DNA of 64,000 nt from Phycisphaeraceae bacterium. Lineage in GTDB: Bacteria > Planctomycetota > Phycisphaerae > Phycisphaerales > Phycisphaeraceae. Each line of letters starts with the position of its first letter. Positions within the stretch are counted from its first letter, which is position 1. The stretch covers positions 62,001 to 126,000 of the forward strand of contig JAJDCS010000043.1 in the NCBI GenBank assembly GCA_029260715.1, in the 5' to 3' direction. Below the pieces are notes generated by a model, which searched no databases, was not told the DNA's origin, and saw only the letters and a program-made list of their open reading frames with translations. The translations under genes and the position numbers were made by a program. This document shows positions 5,392-56,534 of the stretch, in pieces.

Positions 5392-5425
5392 TCCCCGCCT
5401 TCCGCCGGTGTATCATCTTTGCCAC

Positions 5426-5917
5426 ATGGCCAAGCCACACGCTGACAAGCCCTGTCCGATCTGTCGGTTCCTCGCGGCTGACGTTCTGCCGAGCCGCTAC
5501 GTGCCGGTCCATCGCTTCCGTTGGTCGTTGGCGGTGTTGCACCCCAAGCAGGTTTACCCTGGTCACTGCGAGCTTTGGCTGCGCCGCCACGCCAGGGAGC
5601 TATTCGACCTTTCGCCGGCTGTCCGGAGCGGCTTTTTCAATGAGATGAACACGCTCGCCCAGGCGGTTTACTTGACGCAGCAGCCACGGAAGATGAACTA
5701 CGAGCTATTGGGCAACGTCGCGCCGCACCTGCACTGGCACGTCATCCCACGGTACGACGGCGACCCCCGCCCGCAAAGCGCGATCTGGTCCACCCCGCAA
5801 TACACCCGCCCCAGCAAACGAGCGGCGACGCCCCGCGCCGAACGGATAAGGCTGGCGGCGGAGATTGCGACGCGGATTAAGAAGCTGCAACGGGCCGGGT
5901 GCGGTGTTGTGAAATGA
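5426..5917 (+). CDS. HIT domain protein (histidine-triad nucleotide hydrolase/transferase)
   Basis: Predicted cytoplasmic nucleotidyl hydrolase or transferase acting on AMP-linked substrates or dinucleoside polyphosphates. The N-terminal CPIC pair resembles the zinc-binding CxxC of some HIT proteins. The catalytic triad HLHWHV (His101, His103, His105, numbering from the ATG at 5426) is intact, preceded by NYELLGNVAP as in Fhit-like enzymes. The frame is open 90 bases further upstream, but that part is proline and arginine rich and crosses the palindrome, so the internal ATG is preferred. A TATCAT hexamer ends 9 bases before this ATG, so the transcript may be almost leaderless. The exact substrate cannot be told. 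Confidence 0.85.
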   Translation: MAKPHADKPCPICRFLAADVLPSRYVPVHRFRWSLAVLHPKQVYPGHCELWLRRHARELFDLSPAVRSGFFNEMNTLAQAVYLTQQPRKMNYELLGNVAPHLHWHVIPRYDGDPRPQSAIWSTPQYTRPSKRAATPRAERIRLAAEIATRIKKLQRAGCGVVK

Positions 5918-13965: not shown

Positions 13966-14013
13966 GCAATCCGCTTCCTGCCGCCGGGTCGCGTCCGTGC
14001 TAGAATGGCTCGG

Positions 14014-15531
14014 ATGCGGACTTTTCAGAGCTTTAGGCGTAATTATTTGGCGTGGGCGGTTTGTCTGTCCGGGGTTTGGGCCGTGGCCGTTCACGCCCAG
14101 GCCATCGATCAGACCGCGCAATCGGCGGTGTACGTGTTGCGCGGGAGCATGCGGCTGCAGAGCGACAGCAGTCACCACGAGATGCTACGTGCGCTGCGCG
14201 AACTCGAAGACCCGCGGCTGGGCCCGCTGTTTGGCCAGTTGGCGGAGTCGAGCCACCCCGTCCTGCAGATCCACGGGTTGTTGGGGCTTGCGCGCTGTGG
14301 CGGGGGTAAGCAGTTGGACCTGGTACGGGTCGCGGCGATCCAAGACCCGGCGATCCAGGCTGAAACGATCAGCTTGGCGATGGACGAGGAGGTCTTGACC
14401 CTCAAGCAAGCTCAGCAGCTTGTCGAGTGGCCTCAGGTCGATGCCGGGGTGAAGGTGTTGGTAGCCACGAAGCTGATCAAGGCGGGCAAGTTCAACCAGC
14501 TTGACCTGCTGCACACCGCGCTGAAATCTGACAACCTGGCTCGGCGGGGGCTGGCGGCGATGCAACTGGTCCAGCTAGGTGAAACGGGTCGGCTGCAACT
14601 GCTTGAGCGGTTGAACGAGTCGGACGACCCCAAGCGGGACGCGGTCCGGCAGATGCTGCTAGAAACGATGGTCCGGTACGGGTTCGATCGCGCGGCGCCG
14701 TGGGCGGTGTCGGTGTGCAAGCAGCGGGGCGTGGACTGGCGTTTGGACCTGATGGCCCTGCGAGCCGCGTTGAAGCTGAATCACCCGGCGGCGGTCGGGC
14801 TTTGGCGACAGCGTTTTAACGGCTCGTCCGACACGGCGGGTCGGCTGAGGCTGGCGCTACTGGCGTTGGACCTGGCCAATCACCTAAACCCAAAATTCTT
14901 TAACACGCTCATGAACGATGACGACCCGCTGATTGAGCGCATCGGGCGCGCGGGCTACGCCGTGGCTGCCAATGACAACGTGGACATGGCGGTTATCCGG
15001 TTGATCGAGATGCACCACCCGATGGCCAACCGCTGGGTGCTGAGCTTCGCGCGCGACCACGCCACGCTCGACCAGGCCAGGGTGTTGCTGCTGGGGTTGA
15101 TTATGTCGTTTGAGGACGTGCCGCTGGCTCAGCGCGAGCGTGCGGTGCCGGAGGTTGTGGGCGCGGCGCGTGTGCTTTGTGACCGCGACCCGGTGGGTGT
15201 GTCGCTGTTGCGGCCGATCCTGGCGGACCCCGACGCCGACCCGCTGCTGCTGCGGTGCATCTTGGTCGGCCTGATCCACAGCCCCGTGCCCGATCAGCCT
15301 CAAGCCGTGGAGGGGATCGGCCCGTTCGCCAGTTCCGACGTGAGCAACCTGGCGGTTGTCTGGCTGGCCAAGTGCGGCCAACCGCTCACCGACCCGCAGC
15401 GCGAACAGTTGAAGCTGCTGGTGCGCGGCGGGGGCGGGCTCGGCGGGCCGCTGCGTTTGCAGGCCGCGTGGGCGTACTTGAATTTGACCGAGCAGACCCA
15501 GCCGGCGATGGCCAGCGCGTTGGCGCAATAG
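14014..15531 (+). CDS. Secreted HEAT-repeat-like protein
   Basis: Begins with a signal peptide (MRTFQSFRRNYLAWAVCLS then GVWAVAVHAQA). The mature chain of about 475 residues is a run of paired amphipathic helices (ALRELEDPRLGPLFGQLAES, VQLGETGRLQLLERLNESDD, ILVGLIHSPVPDQPQAVEGI) spaced like HEAT/armadillo repeats, so it is probably a solenoid scaffold in the envelope. Catalytic motifs are absent. Two ATGs compete (14005 and 14014). A TAGAAT hexamer at 14001-14006 ends seven bases before 14014 and overlaps 14005, so the downstream one is chosen as a leaderless start. Precise function unknown. Confidence 0.72.
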   Translation: MRTFQSFRRNYLAWAVCLSGVWAVAVHAQAIDQTAQSAVYVLRGSMRLQSDSSHHEMLRALRELEDPRLGPLFGQLAESSHPVLQIHGLLGLARCGGGKQLDLVRVAAIQDPAIQAETISLAMDEEVLTLKQAQQLVEWPQVDAGVKVLVATKLIKAGKFNQLDLLHTALKSDNLARRGLAAMQLVQLGETGRLQLLERLNESDDPKRDAVRQMLLETMVRYGFDRAAPWAVSVCKQRGVDWRLDLMALRAALKLNHPAAVGLWRQRFNGSSDTAGRLRLALLALDLANHLNPKFFNTLMNDDDPLIERIGRAGYAVAANDNVDMAVIRLIEMHHPMANRWVLSFARDHATLDQARVLLLGLIMSFEDVPLAQRERAVPEVVGAARVLCDRDPVGVSLLRPILADPDADPLLLRCILVGLIHSPVPDQPQAVEGIGPFASSDVSNLAVVWLAKCGQPLTDPQREQLKLLVRGGGGLGGPLRLQAAWAYLNLTEQTQPAMASALAQ

Positions 15532-18200: not shown

Positions 18201-18258
18201 ACACGTTCTAGCGTTGTGACGCGTGGCACTGCCCCGCCGCCGCGTTATGATCTTGGTT

Positions 18259-18699
18259 ATGGGCAAGACCAAGAAAAAACGAGTCAAGAAGGTTAAGCCG
18301 CCTGAGAGCGGCTACCCGGTGCCGCCGCACATCATCGGGATGGACTGGATCGAGTTGCCGGTACGCAGCCCGGCCGCCAGCGCCGAGCTTTACCGCCAGA
18401 TCGGCTTTTCGCCGCGTGGGTCGGTGGGCGCCACCCGCCTGATCGCCATAGGCGGGACGGTGTTTGTGCTCAAGCGAAGCGGCGTGCGCACGGCAAAGCC
18501 CGCCAACGGGGTGTTGATTCAGATGCCGGTCGATAATGTCGATTTAAAGCGAGAGCAGCTCAAGGCGATTGGGCTACGCCCCGGCCCGCTGCGCCGCCAG
18601 AAGCGGGGCGACCGGTTTTTCCAGTGGCGTGACCCCGACGGGCACACGCTGCGGTTCGTGGGGCCCGCTCGCCGCCCGGGCGAGAAGATGTTGAGCTAG
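18259..18699 (+). CDS. VOC (glyoxalase/dioxygenase fold) family protein
   Basis: Small cytoplasmic protein of about 146 residues with a lysine-rich start MGKTKKKRVKKVKPP and one vicinal-oxygen-chelate module: GMDWIELPVRSPAASAELYR, QIGFSPRG, MPVDNVDLKREQLKAIGLRP, FFQWRDPDGHTLRFVGPARR. The ending DPDGHTLRFVG is the usual VOC C-terminal strand. The ligand is unknown; a full metal triad cannot be confirmed by eye. A TATGAT hexamer (18246-18251) ends exactly seven bases before the ATG at 18259, so a leaderless transcript is likely. The frame extends to 18223, but that part precedes the predicted transcription start. Confidence 0.75.
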   Translation: MGKTKKKRVKKVKPPESGYPVPPHIIGMDWIELPVRSPAASAELYRQIGFSPRGSVGATRLIAIGGTVFVLKRSGVRTAKPANGVLIQMPVDNVDLKREQLKAIGLRPGPLRRQKRGDRFFQWRDPDGHTLRFVGPARRPGEKMLS

Positions 18700-21382: not shown

Positions 21383-21784
21383 CTAGGCTTCGCCGGGTTC
21401 GTCGAGCGGTTCGGGGTGGAGGTTGGCGGATTCGCCGCGCGCGCGTTTTTCGTTGTACTTCTTGACCCACGATTCCCAGCTCTTGCCGGCGGCGGTGTCG
21501 CGCCCGGAGAATTCAATCTTGACCAGGTCTTTGTAAAGCAGCGTGATCTGTTCGCCGCCGTTGCTGGGGACCAGCCGCAGATACGGCTGGGGCGCGTCGG
21601 CGCGGCGGTCGAAGATGTAGCCCTCGACGGTTTGGCCGTCGGCGGTGTGCAGGGTAACGTCCCCGCGGTAGTCGAAGGCTTGCTCGATGGCTTCGACCCG
21701 CAGGGCGTCGGAGGTGAACGACACGGCTATCCCCTGGGCGGTGCTGGCGTTGGGGGGCGTGGGTTGTGCTGATGATTCGGTCAT
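21383..21784 (-). CDS. Conserved hypothetical protein
   Basis: A 133-residue soluble protein, not recognised. A beta-rich centre (VEAIEQAFDYRGDVTLHTAD, TVEGYIFDRRADA, YLRLVPSNGGEQITLLYKDL, VKIEFSGRDTAAGK) looks like a small barrel or Sm-like fold, followed by a charged tail SWESWVKKYNEKRARGES. It lies 44 bases upstream of trpE on the same strand and may be co-transcribed. A TAGACT hexamer ends nine bases before the ATG. No catalytic motif is visible. Confidence 0.6.
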   Translation of the reverse strand: MTESSAQPTPPNASTAQGIAVSFTSDALRVEAIEQAFDYRGDVTLHTADGQTVEGYIFDRRADAPQPYLRLVPSNGGEQITLLYKDLVKIEFSGRDTAAGKSWESWVKKYNEKRARGESANLHPEPLDEPGEA

Positions 21785-21942
21785 ATGGCCGATAGTCTAT
21801 GCAGTCATGCGCCGCCCCGCACGCGGGTGGATTTGCCCAGCGGGCTGCGCGGCGCGGGTTTGAACGGTTAAGATGACCCGTGAGGCGGCGTCTGCCCCAT
21901 TATTAAAGCGTCTGCAGCCGGTGAAGGCGCCGGGACGAAGCA

Positions 21943-47999: not shown

Positions 48000-49595
48000 T
48001 CATTTCACCTGGTGGCGTGGGAACAGCGGGTCGCCCTGCAGGATCGGCGTGCCGGGTTGGAGTTGGCCCCATTGGGTCCAGGCGTTTAGGTCGCCGGGGC
48101 CATTGTTGGCTAGGGCTTGGGTGTAGTGGTCGCAGCCGATGCGGTGCCAGAGTTGTTCGATCTTGGTGGGCATGATGGGCCAGAGGAGGATTGAGGCGAT
48201 GCGCATGGCTTCGGCGCAGTTGTAGAGGATGGTGCCGACTTCGGGGAGGTTGGCGGGGTCTTTGGCGAGCTTGAAGGGCTGGGTTTTCTCGATGTACTGA
48301 TCGATCGCTCTAATCGAAGCAAATACTTCGTTCGTGTGTCCAACAATATTTAATGCTTTAATTTTCGCATTCCTCTCGTCTGACAACATTGGTGTCAGTG
48401 AGAATCCATGTTCTTGTAACAGGATCAAGCCTCTATCATTGTCTGGAGTTTTAGGCAGTTTTCCGCCGAAATAGCGGTTTGTCATGTTAGAGATGCGGCT
48501 AAAGCAGTTGCCCAGGGTGTTGGCAAGGTCGCTGTTGTAGACGTCGATAAATTTGGCTTCGGCGAAATCGCTGTCGGTGGTGCCCATGGGGCCCGCGGTG
48601 GCCAGGAAGTACCGCAGCGCGTCTAGGCTGAACGTGGCGACGTAGTGGTCGATCTTCTCCAGGTCGATGAAGTTGCCCAGCGACTTGCTCATTTTCTGGC
48701 CTTCGCTGATCCAGAAGCTGTGCGCGTAGACCAGGGCGGGCAAGGGCTTGTCCAGTGCCATGAGCATGGCGGGCCAGATGACGGCGTGGAACCAGAGGAT
48801 GTCTTTGGCGATGAGGTGGACCTGTGCGGGCCAGTAGCCGCGGCGGCTGTCGGTGTCGACGGTGGAGAGGTAGTTGAACAGCGCGTCGATCCAGACGTAG
48901 ATGGTCTGGTCGGGGTCGTTGGGGATGGGGATGCCCCAGCCACGCGAGCCGGTGCGGGAGATGGGCACGTCGTTTAGGCCTTCTTTGATGCGGGCGATGA
49001 CCTCGTTCTTGCGTGCTTCGGGTTGGACGTCGAAGCGTCGGCCGTCAACCTCTTGGCCTTGGAGGAGGGCGAGGAGCTTGTCTTGGTATTTGCTTAGTCT
49101 GAAGAAGTCGTTTTTCTCGGCTTTGCGGACGAGTGGTTTGCCGTTGATGGGGGATTTGAACTCGTACTCATTGGCTTTGTTTTCGGGGACGTACTCTTCT
49201 TGTCCTGTGTCGTACCAGCCTTCATATTGGCCGACGTAGACGTCCTGCGACTCGATCAGGCCACGGATGTATTGGAGGACTTTCTCTTTGTGGCGGTCCT
49301 GGCTGGTGCGGATGAAGTCGTTGTTGGTGATGCCCAGGCGTGCGAAGGTGTCTTGGAAGGCTTTTGCGTTTTGGTCTGCCCACTCTAGTGGGGTGATGCC
49401 GCGTTCGGCGGCGGCGTCGGCGACTTTAGCGGCGTGCTCATCCGTGCCGGTAAGGAAGAAGACGTCATCACCACGCAGGCGGTGGTAGCGCGCGACGATG
49501 TCAGCAATGGTGGTGCTGTAAAGATGCCCGATGTGGGGGCGGTCGTTGACGTAGTAGATCGGGGTCGTGATGTAAAACTTCTGTGGTGTTGACAC
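48000..49595 (-). CDS. metG: Methionyl-tRNA synthetase
   Basis: Class Ia synthetase charging tRNA-Met. The 531-residue form has the Rossmann start FYITTPIYYVNDRPHIGHLY (HIGH motif), DDVFFLTGTDEHAAKVADAA, the WIDALFNYLSTV stretch and the KMSKS loop in SEGQKMSKSLGNF, then the anticodon-binding helical domain. No C-terminal tRNA-binding EMAP-like domain is present. The CxxC zinc knuckles expected in the connective peptide of many MetRS are not visible, as in the shorter zinc-free type. The GTG start at 49595 has TATAAT ending eight bases upstream. Codons in 48300-48500 are markedly AT-richer than the rest. Confidence 0.95.
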   Translation of the reverse strand: MSTPQKFYITTPIYYVNDRPHIGHLYSTTIADIVARYHRLRGDDVFFLTGTDEHAAKVADAAAERGITPLEWADQNAKAFQDTFARLGITNNDFIRTSQDRHKEKVLQYIRGLIESQDVYVGQYEGWYDTGQEEYVPENKANEYEFKSPINGKPLVRKAEKNDFFRLSKYQDKLLALLQGQEVDGRRFDVQPEARKNEVIARIKEGLNDVPISRTGSRGWGIPIPNDPDQTIYVWIDALFNYLSTVDTDSRRGYWPAQVHLIAKDILWFHAVIWPAMLMALDKPLPALVYAHSFWISEGQKMSKSLGNFIDLEKIDHYVATFSLDALRYFLATAGPMGTTDSDFAEAKFIDVYNSDLANTLGNCFSRISNMTNRYFGGKLPKTPDNDRGLILLQEHGFSLTPMLSDERNAKIKALNIVGHTNEVFASIRAIDQYIEKTQPFKLAKDPANLPEVGTILYNCAEAMRIASILLWPIMPTKIEQLWHRIGCDHYTQALANNGPGDLNAWTQWGQLQPGTPILQGDPLFPRHQVK

Positions 49596-49603
49596 GGGAG
49601 GGG

Positions 49604-49609
49604 ATTATA
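49604..49609 (-). promoter_or_regulatory. -10 element of a probable leaderless metG transcript
   Basis: Consensus TATAAT on the minus strand ends eight bases before the GTG start of metG, so transcription should begin at or within a base or two of the start codon. No good -35 is visible. Confidence 0.5.
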
Positions 49610-49778: not shown

Positions 49779-49784
49779 TACAAT
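49779..49784 (+). promoter_or_regulatory. -10 element of a probable leaderless waaA transcript
   Basis: TACAAT ends exactly seven bases before the ATG at 49792; no Shine-Dalgarno lies between. Confidence 0.45.
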
Positions 49785-49791
49785 GTTAGCT

Positions 49792-51060
49792 ATGGGGTTG
49801 GCGTACGACATGATTTACACGGCGATTGGGCTGGCGACGAGCCCGGTGTGGGTGTACCGGCTGGCGAGCACGGGCAAGTGGCGTACGGACTGGCCGGGGC
49901 GGTTCGGGCGGTGCGAGGCTGTGCGGCGCGACGGGCGTGCGATACTGCTGGTCCACGCGGTGAGTGTGGGTGAGGTGAACGCGATTGCCAAGCTGGTGGA
50001 GGCAATGGATAGTCGCAGCGGCGGGGCGGTGCGCGTGGTGGTGAGTGTGACGACGGACATGGGCACGGCTAGGGCGCGGCAACTCTTTGAGCCGAGGCAT
50101 CGTGTGGTGCGGTTCCCGCTTGACTTTGGTGTGTGCGTGAAGCGGTTCCTTGACGCGGTCCGGCCTGACGTGGTGGCGCTGACGGAGTTGGAGGTTTGGC
50201 CGAATTTTGTGCAAGAGTGTGAGGGGCGGGGCGTGCCGGTGTGTGTGATTAACGGGCGGTTGAGCGAGCGGAGCGGGCGGTGGTACAAGTTGATCGCGCC
50301 GTTTGTGCGGCCGACGTTTAGCAAGCTATCAGCGGTGGCGGCGCAGACGCGGGGCTACGCGGATCGGTTTGTGGGGTTGGGTGTGCCGGCTGACAAGGTG
50401 CAAGTGCTGGACTCGATGAAGTGGGACACTGCGGCGGTTGAGGCGGACGCGGGGCTAGCGGCGGGCGCGGAGGCGCTTGCGAAGGCGATGGGGATTGACC
50501 GGGATCGGCCTGTGATTGTGGCGGGGTCGACGGGGCCGGGCGAGGAGCGGCTGCTTATTGATCAGTGCCCGAAGGATGCACAGCTTGTGCTGGTGCCGCG
50601 TAAGCCGGAGCGGTTTGACGAGGTGGCGGCGTTGGCGGGGGGAATGGTGCGGCGGAGCGGTCACCCCGACGGGAGCGATCCGCCTGGGGGTTCGCCACGG
50701 TTGTTTTTGCTGGACACGATGGGGGAGTTGGCGAAGGCTTATGCGCTTGCCGATGTGGCGATTGTGGGGCGTAGCTTTTTGGGGTTGTATGGGTCGAACC
50801 CGATGGAGCCGGTGGCGCTGGGGAGGGCTACGATCATCGGGCCTTGTTACAGTGATTTTGCGGATACGGTTGAGGCGTTACGCGAGGGGGGCGGGATTGT
50901 TGTGACGGACGAGCCTGGGCGGGTGGCGGGGGAGTTGTTGGCTGACCGGGACCGGGCGTGCAAGCTTGGCGAGCGGGGGTTGGCGGTGATCCGCGAGCGG
51001 CAGGGCGCGACTGAGCGGCACGCGGAGATGCTTTTTGAGATGCTGACTACGGTCCGTTAA
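49792..51060 (+). CDS. waaA: 3-deoxy-D-manno-octulosonic acid (Kdo) transferase
   Basis: GT-B glycosyltransferase (GT30) that attaches Kdo to lipid A precursor at the inner membrane's cytoplasmic face. Marks: a membrane-anchoring N-terminus MGLAYDMIYTAIGLATSPVW, the acceptor-site motif LLVHAVSVGEVNA, VSVTTDMGTARARQLF, ALTELEVWPNFV, VINGRLSERS, VIVAGSTGPGEERLLID, VPRKPERFDEV, and VGRSFLGLYGSNPMEPVALG. About 422 residues, normal. ATG 49792 is chosen because TACAAT ends seven bases earlier; upstream in-frame starts exist at 49783 and 49765. Its presence shows that the organism makes LPS. Confidence 0.93.
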   Translation: MGLAYDMIYTAIGLATSPVWVYRLASTGKWRTDWPGRFGRCEAVRRDGRAILLVHAVSVGEVNAIAKLVEAMDSRSGGAVRVVVSVTTDMGTARARQLFEPRHRVVRFPLDFGVCVKRFLDAVRPDVVALTELEVWPNFVQECEGRGVPVCVINGRLSERSGRWYKLIAPFVRPTFSKLSAVAAQTRGYADRFVGLGVPADKVQVLDSMKWDTAAVEADAGLAAGAEALAKAMGIDRDRPVIVAGSTGPGEERLLIDQCPKDAQLVLVPRKPERFDEVAALAGGMVRRSGHPDGSDPPGGSPRLFLLDTMGELAKAYALADVAIVGRSFLGLYGSNPMEPVALGRATIIGPCYSDFADTVEALREGGGIVVTDEPGRVAGELLADRDRACKLGERGLAVIRERQGATERHAEMLFEMLTTVR

Positions 51061-52493: not shown

Positions 52494-53489
52494 TCAGTCC
52501 CTAACCAATAGCAGCTTCACCCTAAACTCAAACGGCCGTCCTAACTCACCCAGCCGAGGGCCCGTCGCGCGCCATTTGTAGAGGCTGGCGATGATCGGGC
52601 CGTCCCAGTCGTCGTAGCCGGTGGAATTGAGTAGTTTCGCTTTGATTACGCTGCCGTTGTGTTGATCGAAGATCAGCAGGGCCACCGGGTTATTGGGTAA
52701 TGCAAACCCTGTTGCGGCGATGCCCGGTTTTAGCCGGGCGGTCTTGATCTCGATGCCATTGCCGACGAGCACACCGCCGGGCTGCACGCTGTCGGCGTTG
52801 AGACGCAGCGTGGCTGGGGAGGACTCCCTGTCCGACCGTGGCGCGGCGGTCGGGTTGGCGGAACGGGTGTGCGGCTTGGTGGTGTGGTTCTGCGTAGGCG
52901 ATTCTGTTTGGGTATCCGTCTCGGATTGTACTTGATCTTCCCGCGTCGGTTGGGGGTGTTCCGCCTGCTGGGGCATGTCGGCCAACAGGTTGCGGTGGGT
53001 GAGCACTGAGGTTTTGCCGCCGATGATCAGGTCGGTGACTTCCAGCGGTGATTGGGGCTGCGGGGGCGGTTCGACCACATGTCTTGGAGTTTGGTTTGCT
53101 TGTATGGCTTCTTGCGGCGTGGGGGGTGTGGGGTCCAGCGGTATGGCGGCGGCGTTGGGGTCGGCGTCTGTCTGATCTTGCAACGCGGGCTGCTCGGTTT
53201 GGCTTTGCGGGGCGATCAGTTGACGGAAATCGTCGTGAGGGATCCACGCCACGGATGAGACACGCGGCGAATCGCGGCCGGGCTTGGGTTGGTCGGGTGT
53301 GGGCAGGATCGGGTCTAAGTCACTGGTGGCGAGGCGGGCCGATGACGACCCCGTCAGCCATTGCGTAAAAGACGGCAGCATGATCAGGTGCACCGCTATC
53401 GCGATGGCCAACCCGACCAGCAGCGGCTGGGCCGGCTCGCGGTTGACCCGGTATGTGATTGTTTCGGCGCGCATCGGTCTACGGATCAA
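52494..53489 (-). CDS. TonB/TolA-like energy-transducing protein
   Basis: A 331-residue protein with one N-terminal membrane helix (PLLVGLAIAIAVHLIMLPSF), a long proline/glutamine/threonine-rich periplasmic linker (about 60-225) and a C-terminal domain of about 85 residues ending GRPFEFRVKLLLVRD, a TonB-C-like arrangement in which energy from an ExbB/ExbD motor is passed to outer-membrane proteins. Its start overlaps the stop of the exbD-like gene by 11 bases, which supports a shared function. The TonB-C domain is divergent, so a TolA-like or other role is possible. Confidence 0.65.
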   Translation of the reverse strand: MIRRPMRAETITYRVNREPAQPLLVGLAIAIAVHLIMLPSFTQWLTGSSSARLATSDLDPILPTPDQPKPGRDSPRVSSVAWIPHDDFRQLIAPQSQTEQPALQDQTDADPNAAAIPLDPTPPTPQEAIQANQTPRHVVEPPPQPQSPLEVTDLIIGGKTSVLTHRNLLADMPQQAEHPQPTREDQVQSETDTQTESPTQNHTTKPHTRSANPTAAPRSDRESSPATLRLNADSVQPGGVLVGNGIEIKTARLKPGIAATGFALPNNPVALLIFDQHNGSVIKAKLLNSTGYDDWDGPIIASLYKWRATGPRLGELGRPFEFRVKLLLVRD

Positions 53490-53910
53490 GCGGAACGGGT
53501 TGAGGCTGACCGACGATGACGAAGTTTTCGATCCCCGCCGCGCGCACCCGGTCGATCAGCCGGATTAGCGCCGGGCCGCGGTCGGTCGTGCCTTGGGCTT
53601 CCATGGCCAAGTAAAGGGAGATGCCGTCACCGAGGCCAGCTAGTTCCTGCAGCTTGGTATCGAGGTCGGCGTCGGTGATGGGTTGGCGGTTGTAGAAAAG
53701 GTCTCCGTTGCGGTCGAGCGTGATGGCCTGGAGTTGGGCCTCGGTCGCGGGCTTGCCGGTGTTCAACTGCATGAGCTTCACGGGCAGCACCTCCGCGCGC
53801 ACGGTCACGATCAGGCTGTAGATGAAGAACGTCAGCAACAGGAAGATGACGTCGATCAGGGGCATCATCTCCACGCGGGGCGACAGGTCGTTGCGGCGGA
53901 TTTCTCTCAT
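53479..53910 (-). CDS. ExbD/TolR biopolymer transport protein
   Basis: About 143 residues with the ExbD layout: a short cytoplasmic start MREIRRNDLSPRVEM, one membrane helix MPLIDVIFLLLTFFIYSLIV that carries the conserved proton-pathway Asp, and a periplasmic domain ending IENFVIVGQPQP. It works with ExbB/TolQ to convert proton-motive force; no ExbB is adjacent. The ATG at 53910 is favoured over a GTG one codon upstream because TATTAT ends seven bases before it. First gene of the exbD-tonB pair. Confidence 0.88.
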   Translation of the reverse strand: MREIRRNDLSPRVEMMPLIDVIFLLLTFFIYSLIVTVRAEVLPVKLMQLNTGKPATEAQLQAITLDRNGDLFYNRQPITDADLDTKLQELAGLGDGISLYLAMEAQGTTDRGPALIRLIDRVRAAGIENFVIVGQPQPVPLDP

Positions 53911-53917
53911 CACATTA

Positions 53918-53923
53918 ATAATA
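53918..53923 (-). promoter_or_regulatory. -10 element of a probable leaderless exbD transcript
   Basis: TATTAT on the minus strand ends exactly seven bases before ATG 53910; there is no Shine-Dalgarno. Confidence 0.45.
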
Positions 53924-55063: not shown

Positions 55064-55834
55064 TTACTCGGTTTCTTGGTGGTGTCGCTCCAGCAAGTCC
55101 AACGCTTGGGCGGGGTCTTCGGGCAGGTCGATGGCTTCGTCGTCGTCCGGCGCGTCTGAATGGCTTTGTAGCAGCCTCTGTGTGTGAGCCTTCGACCGCA
55201 GGGGCTTGGCTTGCAACGACCGACGCAGCACGTACCACCCGCCGCCCAGCAAGGCGACAACGAGGAACGCCGCGGTCATGCCATTGGTGGTTGCGCTGGG
55301 TGGGTTGGCGCCTGCTTGCGTGGCGGCTGTGCGGCCGACGAACAGCAGGTAATCGGTCGGCTTGCCGTTGAGGTCTTTGTCGGCGAGCACTTTGTAGAAC
55401 CGGCCGGGCAGGCGCACCTTGGCGCTGGTGGGCGGCGTCGGCGGCGGGTCTACGAGGTAGACGACCACCACGTCATCCTTGGCTGGGTTGACCACCACGA
55501 CCCACTCCGTGAGCTTGCCGTCCCACGGGCCGGGGCGGGTTAGCCCGTCGATATCGCGGGCACGGCCGGCGAATAGCCCCTCGATCAGAAACAACTGCCC
55601 GCGGTGTGTGGCGGGCTCTTTGAGGATCGCTTGGTAGTCGGGGACAGCGGCGCCCGACTCGTCGCCGGGCTGCCACAGCAACGCGTTTTGCAGCAGCGGG
55701 TAGAGGGCGCCGTCGTCGAAACGCGCATCAAAATCACTAGCCGTATCAATTTGCGTGCGTTGGGCATCGGTCAACGGCTGCACAGCCTGGACACACAGCC
55801 CCAGCACCCCGGCGAATAGAACGCTCGCGCACAT
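55064..55834 (-). CDS. Hypothetical envelope protein with C-terminal membrane helix
   Basis: About 256 residues: an N-terminal signal peptide (MCASVLFAGVLGLCVQAVQP), a beta-rich domain (RGQLFLIEGLFAGRARDIDG, LTEWVVVVNPAKDDVVVVYL, KVRLPGRFYKVLADKDLNGK, YLLFVGRT), a membrane helix (GMTAAFLVVALLGGGWYVLR) and an acidic cytoplasmic tail with LPEDPAQALDLLERHH. Family not recognised. The ATG at 55834 is chosen because TACAAT ends seven bases earlier. It is directly upstream of aroB, but no link to shikimate synthesis is evident. Confidence 0.6.
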   Translation of the reverse strand: MCASVLFAGVLGLCVQAVQPLTDAQRTQIDTASDFDARFDDGALYPLLQNALLWQPGDESGAAVPDYQAILKEPATHRGQLFLIEGLFAGRARDIDGLTRPGPWDGKLTEWVVVVNPAKDDVVVVYLVDPPPTPPTSAKVRLPGRFYKVLADKDLNGKPTDYLLFVGRTAATQAGANPPSATTNGMTAAFLVVALLGGGWYVLRRSLQAKPLRSKAHTQRLLQSHSDAPDDDEAIDLPEDPAQALDLLERHHQETE

Positions 55835-55841
55835 GGTTGAG

Positions 55842-55847
55842 ATTGTA
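55842..55847 (-). promoter_or_regulatory. -10 element of a probable leaderless transcript for the gene at 55834
   Basis: TACAAT on the minus strand, seven bases before ATG 55834. Confidence 0.45.
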
Positions 55848-55928
55848 GCATCCGGGCTGTATCGGACGACCGCAAAACCTGCGGGCCAGGCGACCGCGCA
55901 CGCTAAGCCGGTTGCGTACACTTTAGCT

Positions 55929-56534
55929 GTGTCAGACCGATTGAACCGTTCTTTTTACCGCCGTGATGCGGTGCGGGTTGCCAGGTCGTTGCTTGGCCAG
56001 CGCCTGGTGCGCGTGCTCGACGGGCGTCGCTTGGCGGGGGCCATTGTCGAAGTCGAGGCATATCTAGGGCAGCGTGACCAGGCGGCGCATACCTACAACG
56101 GCCGTCGCACCGCGCGGAACGGGTCGATGTGGGGCGACGGCGGGCACGCGTATGTCTACTTCACCTACGGCATGCACCACTGCATGAACGCGGTGGCGGG
56201 GCGTGCGGACGAACCGATCGCGGTGCTGCTGCGGGCGATTGAGCCGTTAGAGGGGCTTGAGGTGATGCGGTCTTTGCGGAAGAAAGCACGGAAAGACACC
56301 GACCTGTGTTCCGGCCCGGCCAAGCTCTGCCAGGCGCTTGGGATCGATCGGGGGTTGGACGGCTGTGATTTAGTGGAAGGCTCAGAGCTGTTTATTGAGA
56401 AAGCCCGCGCCCGTGCCTATCCCGGTCGGGGTATTGTCACGGGCCCGCGCGTGGGTGTGGCTTACGCAGGCGCGTGGGCAGCCAAGCCGCTGCGATTTTA
56501 TGTCAAGGGCAACCATCACGTCAGTAGGCTCTAA
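55929..56534 (+). CDS. 3-methyladenine DNA glycosylase (AAG/MPG family)
   Basis: Base-excision enzyme that removes alkylated and deaminated purines from DNA. From the GTG at 55929, about 201 residues, the normal size of bacterial AAG proteins: LNRSFYRRDAVRVARSLLGQ, the catalytic region AGAIVEVEAYLGQRDQAAHT, RNGSMWGDGGHAYVYFTYGM, NAVAGRADEPIAVLLRAIEP, LCSGPAKLCQALGID and GPRVGV. The first Glu of VEVEAY corresponds to the water-activating glutamate. The frame is open upstream to 55755 but that part is antisense to the neighbour. Confidence 0.92.
   Translation: MSDRLNRSFYRRDAVRVARSLLGQRLVRVLDGRRLAGAIVEVEAYLGQRDQAAHTYNGRRTARNGSMWGDGGHAYVYFTYGMHHCMNAVAGRADEPIAVLLRAIEPLEGLEVMRSLRKKARKDTDLCSGPAKLCQALGIDRGLDGCDLVEGSELFIEKARARAYPGRGIVTGPRVGVAYAGAWAAKPLRFYVKGNHHVSRL

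Follow-up and report, generated by a model that had tools for sequence, protein, structure and literature searches.

Start-adjacent −10 hexamers and probable leaderless genes in a Phycisphaeraceae genome and in part of the Planctomycetota

In a genome of the family Phycisphaeraceae, a hexamer of the form TANNNT recurs a few nucleotides before start codons, at a near-fixed spacing; it keeps this place in the orthologs of most of the genes considered, is rare before genes lying close behind a same-strand neighbour and recurs, at the same distance from ATG, in a number of families of the phylum Planctomycetota. On comparative grounds, these boxes are very likely sigma70-type −10 elements giving rise to leaderless mRNAs, beside a Shine-Dalgarno (SD) system, and many genes, here and in related genomes, would probably have an mRNA starting at the start codon itself, i.e., devoid of a ribosome-binding leader. 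The term “leaderless” is used here as deduced from the position of the promoter only. Start-adjacent −10 promoters, established by experiment in Deinococcus-Thermus, are extended to a part of this phylum by comparisons made gene by gene.

Start-adjacent hexamers in the window and their enrichment before leading genes

The window, i.e., the whole stretch of 64,000 nucleotides that was analysed (G000:C38:62001-126000), comes from a source genome of 3.32 Mb in 44 contigs; judged by WaaA, the nearest named relatives are for the most part MAGs labelled Planctomycetota, Phycisphaeraceae or Phycisphaerales. A first-pass annotation had listed eight starts, each preceded by a −10-like hexamer and lacking an SD; on recheck, all eight hexamers and their spacings proved exact, at 7–9 nt before the start, and the absence of an SD was borne out at every one of them (GGAG, GAGG and AGGA, from −20 to −4). 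A ninth start-adjacent box, besides those already listed, is found before GTG 55929, and none of the nine starts has an SD 4-mer at −20 to −4 (Table 1). The exbD/tolR gene lies 42 nt behind aroB (TIGR01357) on the same strand, and waaA and metG are divergent with 196 bp between them. Of note, the starts at 55834 (minus strand, TACAAT) and 55929 (plus strand, TACACT) are 94 bp apart and correspond to back-to-back predicted leaderless promoters, metG/waaA (49595/49792) forming a similar divergent pair.

Table 1. Putative −10 boxes and predicted leaderless genes in the window (positions are those of the window).
Feature	Coordinates	Strand	Evidence
Putative −10 box TATTAT, 7 nt before ATG 53910 (exbD/tolR)	53918..53923	−	
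ExbD/TolR gene, predicted leaderless, ATG 53910-53908	53482..53910	−	PF02472, E 1.1e-16, from residue 7; ortholog starts
Putative −10 box TATAAT, 8 nt before GTG 49595 (metG)	49604..49609	−	
metG, methionyl-tRNA synthetase, predicted leaderless, GTG start	48003..49595	−	TIGR00398 from residue 7
Putative −10 box TACAAT, 7 nt before ATG 49792 (waaA)	49779..49784	+	
waaA, 3-deoxy-D-manno-octulosonic acid transferase, predicted leaderless	49792..51057	+	PF04413; NF004388 below its cut-off
Putative −10 box TACAAT, 7 nt before ATG 55834	55842..55847	−	
u55834, function unknown, predicted leaderless	55067..55834	−	No Pfam match; orthologs; directly upstream of aroB (TIGR01357)
Putative −10 box TACACT, 6 nt before GTG 55929	55917..55922	+	
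Methylpurine-DNA glycosylase gene, predicted leaderless	55929..56531	+	PF02245 from residue 8, E 7.2e-68
Putative −10 box TAGAAT, 7 nt before ATG 14014, overlapping in-frame ATG 14005	14001..14006	+	
HEAT-like gene (label weak), predicted leaderless	14014..15528	+	HEAT_2 21.3 bits, cut-off 27.7 not reached; orthologs
Putative −10 box TAGACT, 9 nt before ATG 21784	21794..21799	−	
u21784, function unknown, predicted leaderless	21386..21784	−	No Pfam match; orthologs
−10-like TATCAT, 9 nt before ATG 5426 (HIT-domain gene)	5411..5416	+	Weak
−10-like TATGAT, 7 nt before ATG 18259 (glyoxalase-like gene)	18246..18251	+	No ortholog support

An enrichment of −10 hexamers about 13 bases before starts, the lack of which had been named in the first-pass annotation as grounds for giving up its reading, is strong and position-specific, respective to both other spacing windows and shuffled sequences. 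The counts were made on 814,936 bases of the source genome, i.e., about a quarter, where 596 genes were called by codon usage; a gene was taken as leading when its upstream neighbour was on the opposite strand or 60 nt or more away, and as a close operon gene when the gap was below 20 nt. This caller of our own is simple and incomplete (596 genes in 815 kb), with many GTG and TTG starts among its calls, so that every ATG or GTG candidate near the coding start was used in the gene-based counts. TANNNT at spacing 6–9 precedes 77 of the 446 leading genes, whereas six control spacing windows give 40.8 on average; for the narrower TANAMT the figures are 34 and 6.7. With 200 dinucleotide shuffles on 511 genes (opposite-strand neighbour or gap of 20 nt or more), TANNNT reached 84 genes versus 38.7 ± 5.6 (57 in the highest shuffle), and TANAMT 6–9 nt before a candidate start reached 36 versus 4.7 ± 2.2 (12 in the highest shuffle). 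The same peak was present in a smaller sample of 415 kb of the source genome, superseded by the 815 kb sample.

The gene-based count was also applied to other genomes. A genome of the same family (G009, 400 kb) gave 37/202 leading genes versus 12.3, and a genome of the same order belonging to family f2 (G034, 400 kb) gave 25/181 versus 7.3. In the same pipeline, Deinococcus plasmids (250 kb), from a lineage known for leaderless genes, gave 20/110 versus 6.8, i.e., a TANNNT excess per leading gene of similar size, and Escherichia coli (200 kb) was without excess, at 7/93 versus 15.5. The first-pass annotation had called such genes widespread; the excess is real, but by the TANNNT count it amounts to only about 8–12% of leading genes in the three genomes, a figure which is probably a lower bound for the leaderless share. 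TANNNT by itself is a loose pattern, met by chance before about 39 of the 446 leading genes in a control spacing window, and little is hence proved by one isolated match without ortholog support, as at 18259.

Close operon genes are poor in the box. TANAAT was found before none of them in three genomes (0/52, 0/34, and 0/60), and the source genome has one with TANAMT and three with TANNNT out of 52. From the rate in leading genes, 8.6 occurrences of TANAMT and 23.5 of TANNNT would be expected before the 146 close operon genes of the three genomes; 2 and 5 were found, respectively, these being small counts in a setting where the chance background is lower too.

Conservation of the box in orthologs and its fifth base

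For each gene, only the best-scoring ortholog loci were considered (e.g., 30 of 38 matching genomes for exbD and 80 of 329 for waaA), with the query genome excluded, and scoring was done on in-frame ATG or GTG candidates around the expected start. Loci with duplicate flanks were dropped, as were those lacking a match at E 1e-4 or a usable candidate and those whose match began beyond residue 45 of the query. Six spacing windows served as controls, the 1–5 nt window being left aside because it shares spacing 5. Among these best-scoring loci, TANNNT stands 5–9 nt before the start in 24/29 for exbD (control mean 1.8), 20/29 for metG (0.8), 46/76 for waaA (2.7), 18/20 for u55834 (2.7), 22/26 for the HEAT-like gene (3.7), and 13/19 for u21784 (0.7). 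For the HIT gene at 5426, 12 of 22 distant HIT relatives have it, with mixed hexamers (control mean 1.8), and for the glyoxalase-like gene at 18259 the box is present in none of the four scored relatives. By these counts, the box is conserved in place strongly for six of the eight genes, weakly for the HIT gene and not for the glyoxalase-like gene.

While columns 1, 2, and 6 of the box were fixed by the search, columns 4 and 5 were free and have a pairwise identity of 0.49–1.0 within the six well-supported genes, the HIT set being weaker (0.38 and 0.45). Column 3 is variable (0.26–0.47), the spacer shows some conservation in the metG and u21784 sets, and the upstream flanks have a mean pairwise identity of 0.27–0.30, i.e., near random. 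These flanks are GC-rich, which argues against the hexamer being a general A/T-rich signal. A promoter made of a single hexamer in a constant position can be followed for a given gene over dozens of genera, and its evolution becomes directly readable. In metG of one genus (L076, L078, and L080), TACAAT is found 26–27 nt before ATG instead of 6–9 (by eye; 27 confirmed for L078), which looks like the gain of a leader, turning a leaderless gene into a leadered one. Among the waaA loci labelled Gemmatimonad- (L086, L124, L130, L131, and L136), four out of five are without the site, and in L131 a GTG is preceded at 7 nt by TAACAT. A waaA locus labelled Vicinamibacteraceae (L128) has TAGAAT 7 nt before ATG; either the trait is present in another phylum too, or this bin is mislabelled.

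The position of the box also bears on start codons, several of which were to be revised according to the first-pass annotation. This holds for ATG 14014, since the other in-frame ATG, upstream at 14005, shares bases with the −10 box, and 15 of 155 ortholog sites likewise have an in-frame ATG overlapping the box. A gene caller retaining the longest ORF would then settle on a start necessarily lying outside the transcript, and the start-adjacent box could serve as a rule for correcting start codons in such genomes. Two single examples anchor the reading at individual loci. One is L166 (G009), where the 20 nt upstream of an ATG contain TACAAT and are directly preceded by a hairpin of −25.8 kcal/mol with its T run; at such an intrinsic terminator read-through should stop, and no long leader fits. 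In L204 (source genome), TACAAT stands 8 nt before the ATG of a mutM-like formamidopyrimidine-DNA glycosylase gene, the start of which is fixed by an Fpg Pfam domain beginning at residue 1 and by the catalytic proline at position 2 of this family.

Genes differ in the fifth base of their box. The HEAT-like gene and u21784 have C there in 30 of 35 sites (TANACT), versus C in 5, A in 56, and G in 1 of 62 sites for exbD, metG, and u55834 (TANAAT); Fisher's test on C and A gives P 1e-14, a value that overstates the independence of related sequences, although their flanks are randomised. When the first two genes are compared with the other three within a genome, the pair is C/A in 53 comparisons, A/C in none, A/A in 11, and C/C in 1, with several comparisons sharing one genome and five genes only being involved. 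The counter-cases are the HEAT-like gene of the window itself, which has A (TAGAAT), and those of G029, G033, and G037 (family f6), which also have A. Tentatively, and at somewhat less than even chances, this base may be a conserved, gene-specific setting in leaderless promoters; if true, selection would hold promoters at a set strength, or sort them between sigma factors, via one base. A functional theme was sought by Pfam in the TANACT class (20/24 candidates of G000 and G009) and none was found; these are varied metabolic and tRNA-synthetase genes, several being without match.

Initiation modes and competing readings

In the proposed mechanism, a housekeeping sigma70-type RNA polymerase would take the hexamer as its −10 element and transcription would begin at the start codon or 1–3 nt before it. 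By promoter geometry, a −10 box at this distance of 6–8 nt allows a leader of 0–3 nt only. Translation would then proceed without SD pairing, presumably by 70S or initiator-tRNA-charged ribosomes on a 5′-terminal AUG or GUG, as in known systems. No signal for a −35 element was found in 155 pooled ortholog sites, where the relative entropy upstream of the hexamer is at most 0.11 bits, so that the promoter would in effect consist of a 6-bp box and a 6–8 bp spacer before the ORF. In the source genome, 26 of 30 sites have G or T at position −2 respective to the box, a hint of an extended −10 in this genome which is not repeated in the pooled orthologs.

The 16S rRNA 3′ end is GGATCACCTCCTTT, with an intact anti-SD. 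SD 4-mers precede 16/52 close operon genes and 95/446 leading genes, versus 355/5001 internal ATGs, and genes close behind a same-strand neighbour use SD somewhat more often. The intact anti-SD together with SD use before close operon genes indicates that both initiation modes coexist. Many leading genes have neither signal, only 95 of the 446 having an SD, and the leaderless model does not explain them.

The hexamer could instead be a translation signal in leadered mRNA, namely an A/U-rich S1 site or a non-canonical RBS resembling that of Bacteroidota. Its location close to the start is indeed reminiscent of an RBS, and in one planctomycete few genes have an SD and a base bias before starts is possibly linked to leaderless mRNA or to S1 (PMC5397173). 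Such a signal is nonetheless hard to reconcile with a sharp TANNNT at near-fixed spacing, with the terminator immediately upstream in L166, or with the metG box having moved in one genus as a movable promoter would; besides, an RBS could not replace the matching motif of Deinococcus (PMC12340547). The A/T-rich pre-start stretch independent of operon position that characterises a Bacteroidota-type RBS was not found here, where the surroundings are GC-rich, the hexamer is rare before close operon genes and the anti-SD is intact. A translation signal is therefore improbable.

Two further accounts are less probable still, each very remote. One is chance, i.e., matches to a loose pattern picked from the about 46 genes of the window, an account to which the control-window background, the lack of ortholog support for 18259 and the weak support for 5426 lend something; it is countered by the shuffle and spacing controls and by conservation in genomes outside the sequence seen in the first-pass annotation, and it is refuted for exbD, metG, waaA, 14014, 21784, and 55834, remaining for 18259 and less so for 5426. 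The other takes the −10 as real but would keep a short functional leader (4–8 nt) or place the main promoter further upstream. The spread of spacings from 5 to 9 speaks for some leader, but a box 6–8 nt before the start leaves 0–3 nt only, and neither a −35 nor a second conserved block is seen up to 45 nt upstream in the 155 pooled sites. The sigma70-type −10 element giving a leaderless mRNA remains the preferred reading. Separately, an enrichment of stop codons (TAA or TAG inside TANNNT) was discarded by reasoning, the common TACAAT and TATAAT not being stop-led and spacing 7 being out of frame.

Relation to known systems and spread over Planctomycetota

The closest known system is the “-10-motif” of Deinococcus-Thermus, adjacent to the ORF and backed by reporter and RNA evidence, start misannotation included, and the layout is thus already known from other phyla (PMC12340547). 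The two have in common (i) a TANNNT that hardly varies at bases 1, 2, and 6, (ii) a location about 6–7 bp before the ORF, (iii) its maintenance across homologs, (iv) RBS genes as a second class, and (v) misannotated starts (PMC12340547). In Deinococcus-Thermus, the motif needs no −35 (PMC12340547). They differ in phylum and in that the system is known here by comparison alone and there by reporters and RNA; in addition, exbD, metG, and u55834 have mainly TANAAT forms, whereas the commonest form in D. radiodurans is TACACT (PMC12340547). For leaderless genes in Deinococcus-Thermus, the figure given for D. deserti is about 60% (PMC9031893). The same placement of TANNNT was described for TA-led genes, about 12 bp before the TIS, in more than 20% of the genes in Actinobacteria and Deinococcus-Thermus (PMC3160421). 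The words “Planctomyc” and “Rhodopirellula” are absent from the main text of that study (PMC3160421), as is “planctomyc” from the main text of a cross-bacterial scan of complete genomes, the supplement of which may include Planctomycetota (PMC12340547). Leaderless promoters in planctomycetes were not the subject of any report recognisable by its title or the start of its abstract in the open-licence literature on leaderless or TSS work.

The genes considered here resemble those with non-SD initiation in Bacteroidota (AT-rich RBS) in having no SD before them, but differ in that the 16S anti-SD is complete and the spaced hexamer is set in GC-rich sequence. With Actinobacteria (Mycobacterium, Streptomyces), the source genome shares a high GC content and a mixed set of SD and leaderless genes, but no stand-alone CarD was found here. 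CarD is a promoter helper in Actinobacteria (mycobacteria) and Thermus. PF02559 gave 41 matches, spread over 40 of 41 genomes, and each falls in an open frame of at least 742 aa; the sole match in the source genome lies in a 1159-aa frame, Mfd-like.

At the scale of whole genomes, the source genome has 114 occurrences of TANAAT-N6-8-ATG versus 50 of TANAAT-N15-17-ATG. Out of 199 Planctomycetota genomes, 48, from 27 of 80 families, have a significant spacing excess (P < 0.05/199), and the reverse excess (N15-17 above N6-8) occurs in 0/199 at P < 0.001 and 3/199 at P < 0.05. The 35 genomes with the highest pattern background (at least 60 per Mb), taken as AT-rich from pattern density and not from GC, show no excess (24,925 versus 25,089). 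The TANAAT excess is not significant in four genomes of the same class outside the order (f7–f9) nor in four f2 genomes of the same order, and the trait is thus patchy, although G034 of f2 has the TANNNT excess in the gene-based count. Its largest start-adjacent excesses are those of TANCCT, TANCAT, and TANACT rather than TANAAT, a hexamer set which suggests that its sigma factor prefers a somewhat different −10.
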